This document shows positions 44,765 to 49,936 of a stretch of 49,936 bases of DNA, piece by piece (positions within the stretch are counted from its first letter, which is position 1; each line of letters starts with the position of its first letter). This DNA is from a virus. The notes under the pieces are model-generated. The model saw only the letters and a program-made list of their open reading frames with translations, had not been told where the DNA came from and searched no databases. The translations under genes and the position numbers were made by a program. The DNA lies in the IMG/VR virus record IMGVR_UViG_3300046804_001058, positions 64,001 to 113,936 of that record. One strand, 5' to 3'.

Positions 44765-45182
44765 TGGTGGAGGTGAGGGGAGTTGAACCCCTGTCTCCAC
44801 AAGTATACGTAATACCGTTCTTACATGCTTAGTACTAATACTGAAGGGTGTGGTTAGTAACTTTTATCCTTCTGTTTCTCCATCCGTCTGTTAAGACAAG
44901 TATTTGCACCGTAATGGGATCGCAGGGTCTGCTTTCTACCACCACTCTGTTTATATGACTACAGAGAAAACTCTTGTAACTTTCTGTTTCCAGGTTGTTA
45001 CCACCCAGTTGCCTTAGGCAGCTACTGCTACCTCAGAAGCGAAGGCCATAGCAATGATGCTAGCTCCTTCTGCAACACGCTCAGATTGACTCTTTACGGT
45101 TATTGTTTAGAACTTGTTTACCTGTTCCAAGGCTTGCATGTGATACTACCCATCTCATGTGGATCAAATCCAATACACCCCC
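44765..45182 (-). ncRNA. ssrA: tmRNA (transfer-messenger RNA)
   Basis: The minus-strand 5' GGGGGTG (45182-45176) pairs with 3' CACCTCC before A and an encoded CCA, 7 pairs with one G-U. AGGGGTTCAACTCCCCT is the T-arm. The tag frame ends ...SEVAVAA followed by TAA (45016-45014), which lies in the loop of a short hairpin; the start of the tag is not certain (the open frame allows up to about 27 residues). The 418-base length is normal. It should tag stalled peptides with help of host SmpB, which is not encoded here. The tag's end, AVAA, resembles the LAA signal for ClpXP. Confidence 0.9.
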
Positions 45183-45544: not shown

Positions 45545-46276
45545 TTATTTTAATTTTGTGAACAATTCAGACAATTTACCTTCTTCATGTGTAGCCATTA
45601 CAAACTGTTTCTTGTTCTTCTCTAGATTTGATATGAACTTCTTGTGATTATAGTTTTTAGTCACTCTCAAGAACTTAACATACTCTGAACAAGCATATTT
45701 ATTCTCAAATCTGTTCATTCTAGGAACAACTTTTAACATGTCTGTAACATAATCAAGGATTTGTACATTCTCTTTCTCATTTGAGATTCTGAACTCACCT
45801 GATTTAATCTTTCTACCTGCAGATCCTGTATCAGCACTTGGAAGAGTTAATAATACTCCTGCAAGAAAACTGATTTCAAAATCATACACTTGGAAATAAT
45901 GATTTAACTTAACATAATCAGGCACTAATGATGCCCATGCTGTTACATAATCAACCATTGCCCAGTTTTTAGATGATGCATTTAACAATGCAATCTTCTC
46001 TACTAACTCTTTTTTATCCTTTATATCAATTGATACGTATGGAATATCCATATTATTTCTAATCAATGCATTGAATAAGTGTTGACCATCAATGATATAT
46101 GGTTTCTTCTTACCATCAATAAATGCTAACTCAGATATTACAACTGGTCTAATGATGCCCATCTTGTTTACTGAATTTGCTAATTTAGTCACTTGAGAAG
46201 GATTAATAGGTCTATTAATACCTGCTAAATAAGAGAATGACTGTTTGCTGTTTTTTGTTAAAGTTTGAATTTTCAT
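45545..46276 (-). CDS. ParB/Srx-like domain protein
   Basis: 243 residues. LAGINRPINPSQVTKLANSV, NKMGIIRPVVI and IIDGQHLFNALIRNNMDIPY form the N-terminal ParB-type (ParB/sulfiredoxin) fold, with GQH at the usual GxRR/GERR position. Typical DNA-binding HTH of chromosomal ParB is not evident, and the C-terminal half is phage-specific. It may be an NTP-binding clamp or nuclease-like relative. A parS-like site lies 3.5 kb away, which makes a partition link worth testing; this is inference. Confidence 0.6.
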   Translation of the reverse strand: MKIQTLTKNSKQSFSYLAGINRPINPSQVTKLANSVNKMGIIRPVVISELAFIDGKKKPYIIDGQHLFNALIRNNMDIPYVSIDIKDKKELVEKIALLNASSKNWAMVDYVTAWASLVPDYVKLNHYFQVYDFEISFLAGVLLTLPSADTGSAGRKIKSGEFRISNEKENVQILDYVTDMLKVVPRMNRFENKYACSEYVKFLRVTKNYNHKKFISNLEKNKKQFVMATHEEGKLSELFTKLK

Positions 46277-49122: not shown

Positions 49123-49563
49123 TTACAATGCAATTAAGTCTTGATAGTTAGTTGCTTTTGTACTAACAGCAACAGTCTTCAATTCAGAAGCATTGTACTT
49201 AACAACACCTGTTCCTGGCATACTGATGTAATTGATTCCATTCTCATCTTCTAAGATGGAATAGTCTGCTAACTCAGATAATGTGATGTTCTTAGCTCTT
49301 AAGTCTCTACTAACAGACTCAGAACAACTAATGCTGATAGACTCAGGTTGTCCATTTTCAGCAATCTTGCCATTGTACACTAACACTAAGACACGATTGT
49401 AAACCATTTCGCCCTTAGCATTCAACTTAGTCTCACGCTTTAAGTTAGATGGAATCAAACCTAATGCACCTTTCTCAGTCATTAAGTCTCTTACAGTACC
49501 GTTATTAACTAATGTAGTAGCGGTTGCTTGTCTTTGGTAAGCTTGGAATTGTGGTAAAGCCAT
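49123..49563 (-). CDS. Hypothetical protein, single-gene transcript
   Basis: 146 residues. MALPQFQAYQRQATATTLVN, then KGALGLIPSNLKRETKLNAK, is followed by a beta-rich part with VYNRVLVLVYNGKI and SISCSESVSRDL. No signal peptide or known family. The terminator directly after its stop and the non-coding region before it suggest it is transcribed alone, so it may be highly expressed or differently regulated. Confidence 0.6.
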   Translation of the reverse strand: MALPQFQAYQRQATATTLVNNGTVRDLMTEKGALGLIPSNLKRETKLNAKGEMVYNRVLVLVYNGKIAENGQPESISISCSESVSRDLRAKNITLSELADYSILEDENGINYISMPGTGVVKYNASELKTVAVSTKATNYQDLIAL

Positions 49564-49809
49564 AATAATTGGTTGGTTGACCTAAACACCATAAGGTTTT
49601 TTGTTTAATTGTAATTTGATTGTATTGTCAACGATCAGGAGGGGTATCCCCAACTTCTCAATTCACAGGTGGGGTATCTGGTAGGAGTAGCCTCCTCTCC
49701 CATCAACATGGGGGGTATAGGCATTGGAAAAAAAATTTTAGAAATTGTTCCACGTGGAACCATGGCTCCAGTCACTTCCTGTTTTGGCAGCTTTTTGCTT
49801 CCTGGTTTG
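49564..49809. other. Non-coding GC-richer region with direct repeats
   Basis: This 246-base gap shows no credible gene. GGGGTAT occurs at 49641-49647, 49671-49677 and 49712-49718, spaced 30 and 41 bases apart. An A/T tract (AAAAAAAATTTTAGAAATT) at about 49729-49746 lies next to a parS-like palindrome at 49747-49760. The local base composition is richer in G and C than its neighbours. A replication origin or partition/packaging site is possible. Confidence 0.55.
49746..49761. promoter_or_regulatory. parS-like ParB-binding palindrome
   Basis: GTTCCACGTGGAAC (49747-49760) is a perfect 14-base palindrome. With flanking bases (TGTTCCACGTGGAACC) it matches the bacterial parS consensus tGTTnCACGTGnAACa at all specified positions but the last. 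Host ParB binds this sequence to guide chromosome segregation. Its presence in a phage non-coding region may recruit ParB. Confidence 0.65.
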
Positions 49810-49936
49810 TCAAGCTATGTCTTTACTATATACAGTAAATAGTAAACCTATAACTTGACTTATATGACCCATCATAGCCTTAAGTTGTTCCTTATAAGGG
49901 ATGTTATAATATGGTGCTGTACCGGAATTATAATCC
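49810..49936 (-). CDS. 3' end of a minus-strand gene, off right edge
   Basis: The last 41 codons are open from the window edge to the TGA at 49812-49810: DYNSGTAPYYNIPYKEQLKA, MMGHISQVIGLLFTVYSKDI, A. The end is a predicted helix. The 5' part is outside, so product and length are unknown. A plus-strand reading across the same region is not supported. Confidence 0.55.
   Translation of the reverse strand, partial: DYNSGTAPYYNIPYKEQLKAMMGHISQVIGLLFTVYSKDIA

Follow-up and report, generated by a model that had tools for sequence, protein, structure and literature searches.

A candidate orphan parS site in a crAss-like phage and its possible use of host ParB

Described partition sites and the phage palindrome

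In Pseudomonas aeruginosa, as reported by Jecz et al., segregation needs one of the chromosomal sites parS1-4 and any one of them is enough, ParB binding to parS1 and parS4 is slightly below that to a perfect palindrome, and sites with a single intact half, parS10 (TGTTCCACAGGGAACA) included, are bound more weakly (PMC4368675). Sites of the parS type have also been reported in 12 of 12 genomes of a gut consortium, Bacteroides among them (PMC10197239). Outside chromosomes, the genomic island SGI1 is a mobile element with parS-like repeats that is stabilised via the ParABS system of another replicon, an IncC plasmid (PMC10954446). The phage-plasmids P1 and N15 and the actinophages with parABS likewise have a centromere-like site on a phage genome, together with partition proteins of their own. 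Finally, Carjvirus communis (crAssphage) is reported to live as a phage-plasmid that persists without integration (PMC11844821). Our literature search, which covered mainly open-access journal papers, returned no orphan parS in phages; within that literature, the element described as mimicking parS is an integrative one that uses a plasmid ParB, and not a phage that uses a chromosomal ParB.

The window analysed here is a stretch of 49,936 nucleotides, positions 64001-113936 of the 113,936-b viral record IMGVR_UViG_3300046804_001058. It contains the 16-mer TGTTCCACGTGGAACC at 49746-49761, which is identical to P. aeruginosa parS1/parS4 (PMC4368675, Table 1). Within this 16-mer lies a perfect 14-bp palindrome, GTTCCACGTGGAAC (49747-49760; neither feature is assigned a strand), with GTTCC/GGAAC arms that are constant among relatives and a centre that is variable. 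An earlier reading of the letters, made without database searches (hereafter the sequence-only reading), had stated that the parS consensus is matched at all but one specified position, and so it proved: the site agrees with the 16-bp consensus tGTTnCACGTGnAACa at 15 of 16 positions, the last base being C and not a, and the 14-bp core is perfect. The same reading put the chance of such a match at one in 17 million bases, a figure that is plain 4^12; with the record's own dinucleotide composition, 0.0013 matches to GTTNCACGTGNAAC are expected per record, and 6e-6 in a sequence as long as the intergenic region. Neither the window nor the entire record has any zero-mismatch match to GTTNCACGTGNAAC other than GTTCCACGTGGAAC. 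Moreover, CpG is strongly depleted in the window (0.25 of expectation), and maintaining a CpG-centred palindrome should therefore be costly. As judged from its sequence, the phage site is a genuine parS.

The phage site shares the whole 16-mer with P. aeruginosa parS1/parS4 and lies at a skew switch that may mark an origin; unlike bacterial chromosomal sites it is present in single copy, on a phage, with no parA or parB alongside, and is known from its sequence. SGI1 is integrative and mobilizable, and has two sites and a plasmid-encoded ParB, whereas here we deal with a crAss-like phage and, as we infer, a chromosomal ParB (PMC10954446). Carjvirus communis is crAss-like and non-integrating but a different phage; a RepL match is absent from our record, and the available part of the source does not describe a role for parS (PMC11844821). 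The phage-plasmids encode their own partition proteins, neither of which was found here: in HMM searches, which very divergent versions could escape, the whole record gave no ParA (PF13614), HTH_ParB (PF17762), tyrosine integrase or RepL at E<=0.1. With the same reservation about divergent versions, 0 of 14 group members had HTH_ParB (PF17762) at E<=0.1, and 0 of 14 had ParA above the cut-off. The two components of a phage-encoded ParABS cassette, a ParB with an HTH domain and a ParA ATPase, are not recognisable; the sequence-only reading had suggested looking for ParA elsewhere in the genome.

Map position and conservation among relatives

The site lies in a divergent intergenic region of about 605 b at a switch in GC skew. 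The window ends within this region, which occupies 49564-49936 (no strand assigned) and runs on across both record ends, the remainder being 53 b plus 179 b that join the record's left end. A contig from another sample (L002; 99.98-100% identity, virtually the same virus) bridges the right and left ends of the record across the 53-b gap, and the map is therefore circular. On one side the region is bounded by a leftward 146-aa gene (49123-49563, minus strand), which in this phage heads the leftward (replication) block and is not conserved here in most relatives. On the other side the rightward genes begin with a 120-aa winged-helix-like (wHTH) gene; next comes a 117-aa HU-like gene and, after it, terminase and portal. 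The site is 409 b away from where the wHTH gene starts and 183 b away from the 146-aa gene. GC skew is negative in the window's right part, from the record's left end onwards it is positive, and gene direction flips at the same point. Bacterial parS sites are located near oriC. With its skew switch and divergent gene blocks the intergenic region looks like an origin, although gene direction is inseparable from skew.

Two further elements were recognised in the region. Adjoining the site, a conserved non-coding element at 49634-49745 (minus strand) consists of an A/T tract, a C tract, ATGGGAGAGGAGGCTACT and GTTGGGGATACCCC, with a landmark core at 49686-49706; the core reads TCCATGGGAGGAGAGGGTACT and is followed by C-rich and GTTGGGG...CCCCC parts. 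This element is conserved more widely than the parS site, siteless relatives included (L004, L033, L046, L070, L077 and L091 are among the relatives that have it), and an RNA structure for it was unsupported. The site stands about 52-65 b from the landmark core in most relatives and 89 b from it in L070. At the record's left end, upstream of the wHTH promoter, lies TGCATAATATAGCA (L021, 95-108), the palindrome-like core of which, GCATAATATAGC, is present within 2 mismatches at all 30 loci, at -72 to -110. It is likely to be a regulator-binding element.

Counting the exact pattern among relatives proved misleading. It occurs in 18 of 40 records with relatives, its reversed control in 0 of 40, and we rejected the former as a conservation count because 12 of the 18 matches are codons of conserved genes. 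Ten of these are GTTACACGTGAAAC (V-T-R-E-T) within a 517-aa capsid gene of ten relatives (L270, L273-L279, L281 and L282), and the other two fall in a 176-aa gene. The capsid-gene string is a codon coincidence that mimics parS, and a pitfall for pattern counts. Conservation was consequently judged from intergenic sites alone, after removal of the codon matches.

By this measure, exact sites occur at the same place in six records of five further lineages (L057/L058, L070, L074, L077 and L091). The site of L070, TGTTCCACGTGGAACA, matches the consensus at 16 of 16 positions, and in that of L091, GTTTCACGTGAAAC, both arms have changed in step (GTTTC/GAAAC), giving the other common form of parS. 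The sequence-only reading had named conservation of the palindrome in relatives as one of its checks, and several diverged relatives do have the palindrome in the corresponding position. Across 66 pairs of site-bearing loci the flanks share a mean identity of 33% and the site 12.5 of 14 bases, a comparison that measures the contrast to the flanks, and not the frequency of the site, since its rows were chosen for having it. A distant relative, G005, has a full parS, TGTTCCACGTGAAACA, in a different intergenic region, and another match that lies in probable coding sequence. No such site was present within 1 mismatch in four named crAss-like phages and Lbo-JY46, and a nucleotide search of a phage collection with the intergenic region gave no match.

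At the same place, further relatives retain both arms around a centre of ATGT, ACAT, TTGT or ACAA. Such an altered core, which should reduce ParB affinity, is present in about half of the same-place sites. The altered-centre variants retain one complete half besides both arms, an arrangement they share with parS10. Of the loci that have this intergenic region, about half lack the site altogether; with so many siteless relatives, it is therefore dispensable. The ATGT and ACAT centres are, to all appearances, CpG-to-TpG changes, as would be expected. On a polymerase tree the exact sites are scattered and the altered ones interspersed, and this scatter would fit an old parS that has decayed several times.

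Proposed role and competing explanations

Our preferred interpretation, which we hold with somewhat better than even confidence, is that the palindrome acts as an orphan parS on which host ParB loads, most likely for the tethering or partition of a non-integrating phage. Capture of host ParB for partition or nucleoid tethering had been put forward in the sequence-only reading, as had a possible phage-plasmid lifestyle; capture is the best reading because the site has a bona fide parS sequence, is conserved at the same place, and stands in a genome with no recognisable ParA, HTH_ParB, tyrosine integrase or RepL. According to this proposal the helix-turn-helix domain of the host's chromosomal ParB would recognise the palindrome; ParB would load at this point as a CTP-gated clamp and from there spread across the divergent intergenic region. 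ParB on phage DNA could then connect the phage genome to the nucleoid through host ParA, and to SMC, so that a non-integrating genome would be held in place and inherited through slow or carrier-state infection. We consider it likely that host ParB binds the phage site. Our confidence that the phage gains tethering or partition from this, and not titration or silencing, is about half as high; this role is preferred because crAssphage is reported to be a phage-plasmid (PMC11844821), and because of the SGI1 precedent (PMC10954446). The parS of this crAss-like phage is probably functional. For crAss-like and other non-integrating phages, recruitment of host ParB would be a minimal, 16-bp means of staying in dividing hosts without partition genes. 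If the proposal is correct, infected cells have ParB, ParA and SMC at work on viral DNA, and parS is a sequence signature by which such phages can be found.

Host ParB could, of course, bind the site to another end, either because the site is a decoy that titrates ParB as the genome multiplies, or because spreading ParB silences or times the adjacent divergent promoters. We regard this as unlikely, yet it deserves serious consideration. The site does lie between divergent transcription units at the distances given above, a plasmid with parS1-parS3 was silenced on ParB overproduction (PMC4368675), and a multicopy phage genome would presumably exceed the chromosomal sites in number. A titrating decoy, however, should have several strong sites, whereas most relatives have one per genome and G036 two, and the altered-core sites would be poor titrators. 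It is distinctly less probable that the palindrome serves some phage DNA-binding protein as its operator, with the 120-aa wHTH and the 117-aa HU-like proteins as candidates, and that its likeness to parS is coincidental. Genes for both proteins flank the region in all relatives where the region was located, and constant arms with a variable centre are typical of an operator with a spacer. Yet the wHTH promoter has its own element, GCATAATATAGC, at every locus, the GTTCC dyad is absent in half of the wHTH-bearing relatives, and the centre is anything but random, with ACGT, ATGT/ACAT and TTGT/ACAA as its only forms. It is also unlikely that the parS matches in L070, with 16 of 16 positions, in L091 and in G005 are coincidental.

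The remaining explanations we judge improbable to a still greater degree. That the arms always pair at this place, even through the double change to GTTTC/GAAAC in L091, while the loops vary, is what one would expect of an RNA or single-stranded DNA hairpin (5-bp stem, 4-base loop) acting in a leader or origin; but the site region folds no better than shuffled sequences (z -0.63), the centre variants come as reverse-complement pairs, fitting a double-stranded dyad, and the G005 site, GTTCCACGTGAAAC, disrupts the stem and retains parS. We thus find a hairpin very improbable, and hold even less to the idea that the phage's own ParB-domain protein recognises the site. This protein of 243 aa, encoded at 45545-46276 on the minus strand, carries an invariant DGQH motif, and the sequence-only reading had correctly placed its gene 3.5 kb away (3.47 kb) and linked it to the site. 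It matches ParB-like PHROGs, more weakly ParB_N and, as a weak sequence match, the N-domain of Noc, and its predicted model (pLDDT 88) resembles ParB/Noc and sulfiredoxin folds in Foldseek. Over the full length, however, the best ParB/Noc structural matches are poor (TM-score by query length 0.26-0.41, rmsd 9-16 A), and the protein has no HTH_ParB match. Gene and site are also uncoupled across relatives in both directions, the gene being absent from the near-complete, site-bearing genomes G036, G037 and G042 and present in the near-complete, siteless G003, G004, G006 and G045. We weighed this protein as the partner of the site and rejected it, and the link made in the sequence-only reading falls with it. 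Least credible of all is a functionless palindrome that arose by chance. Such strings do arise otherwise, as the 12 of 18 exact matches that are codons in the 40 records illustrate, but an expectation of 0.0013 per record, recurrence in the corresponding intergenic position of diverged relatives and the empty reversed control (0 of 40) speak strongly against it.

Wider occurrence, phage kinship and host

Across IMG/VR, at least 120 stretches contain canonical parS, TGTTNCACGTGNAACA, compared with 34 and 38 for two control palindromes, a count to which contigs of misclassified host or plasmid DNA may have added. Real parS has Y and R at the two free positions, and so do 138 of 145 sites among the matches listed versus 15 of 34 controls; several sites occur together in 15 of 120 loci among the matches listed versus 0 of 34 controls. 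Canonical parS 16-mers are clearly over-represented in viral contigs among the matches listed (loci L111-L230), sometimes form clusters of 3-5, and mostly occur with no recognisable ParB. HTH_ParB was above the cut-off in 0 of 42 parS-bearing contigs of >=15 kb among the matches listed. We offer tentatively, as something that may well not hold, the idea that capture of host chromosomal ParB by an orphan parS is a widespread strategy used by many phages without ParB or ParA. Were it true, host centromere machinery would tether, segregate or organise viral genomes, and the persistence of crAss-like phages in growing hosts would be accounted for.

The terminase of our phage shares 41% identity with that of Leptolyngbya phage Lbo-JY46, 34% with Cellulophaga phage phi4:1 and 25-29% with named Crassvirales, and among named phages its capsid protein matches Lbo-JY46 only. 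From these comparisons the phage is crAss-like, a relative of the order Crassvirales. Upstream of the wHTH gene, 30 of 30 loci have a TTG-N18-21-TAnnTTTG promoter, and full-length matches to the TTTG-N19-TAnnTTTG promoter type number 5 in the window versus 1.2 expected. The TAnnTTTG form is characteristic of Bacteroidota, and the host is therefore probably a member of the Bacteroidota, as crAss kinship also suggests. Lbo-JY46 (PP438436.1) is listed with a cyanobacterial host, which conflicts with the Bacteroidota-type promoters of the group. A host search with the polymerase in bacterial genomes found nothing. A search with the capsid protein found a single 13.4-kb contig (L283, JACIXZ010000023.1) with 88% capsid identity inside a Tissierellales MAG; we distrust Tissierellales as the host, since the contig may be mis-binned.

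The phage also has a tmRNA gene at 44765-45182 on the minus strand (Rfam, 74 bits), the sole family above the gathering score in an Rfam scan. With a GC content of 0.445, versus 0.386 for the region of the parS site, it corrects the sequence-only reading, which had taken the latter for the only GC-richer non-coding region. The predicted tag peptide, VKSQSERVAEGASIIAMAFASEVAVAA, looks unusually long at 27 aa.
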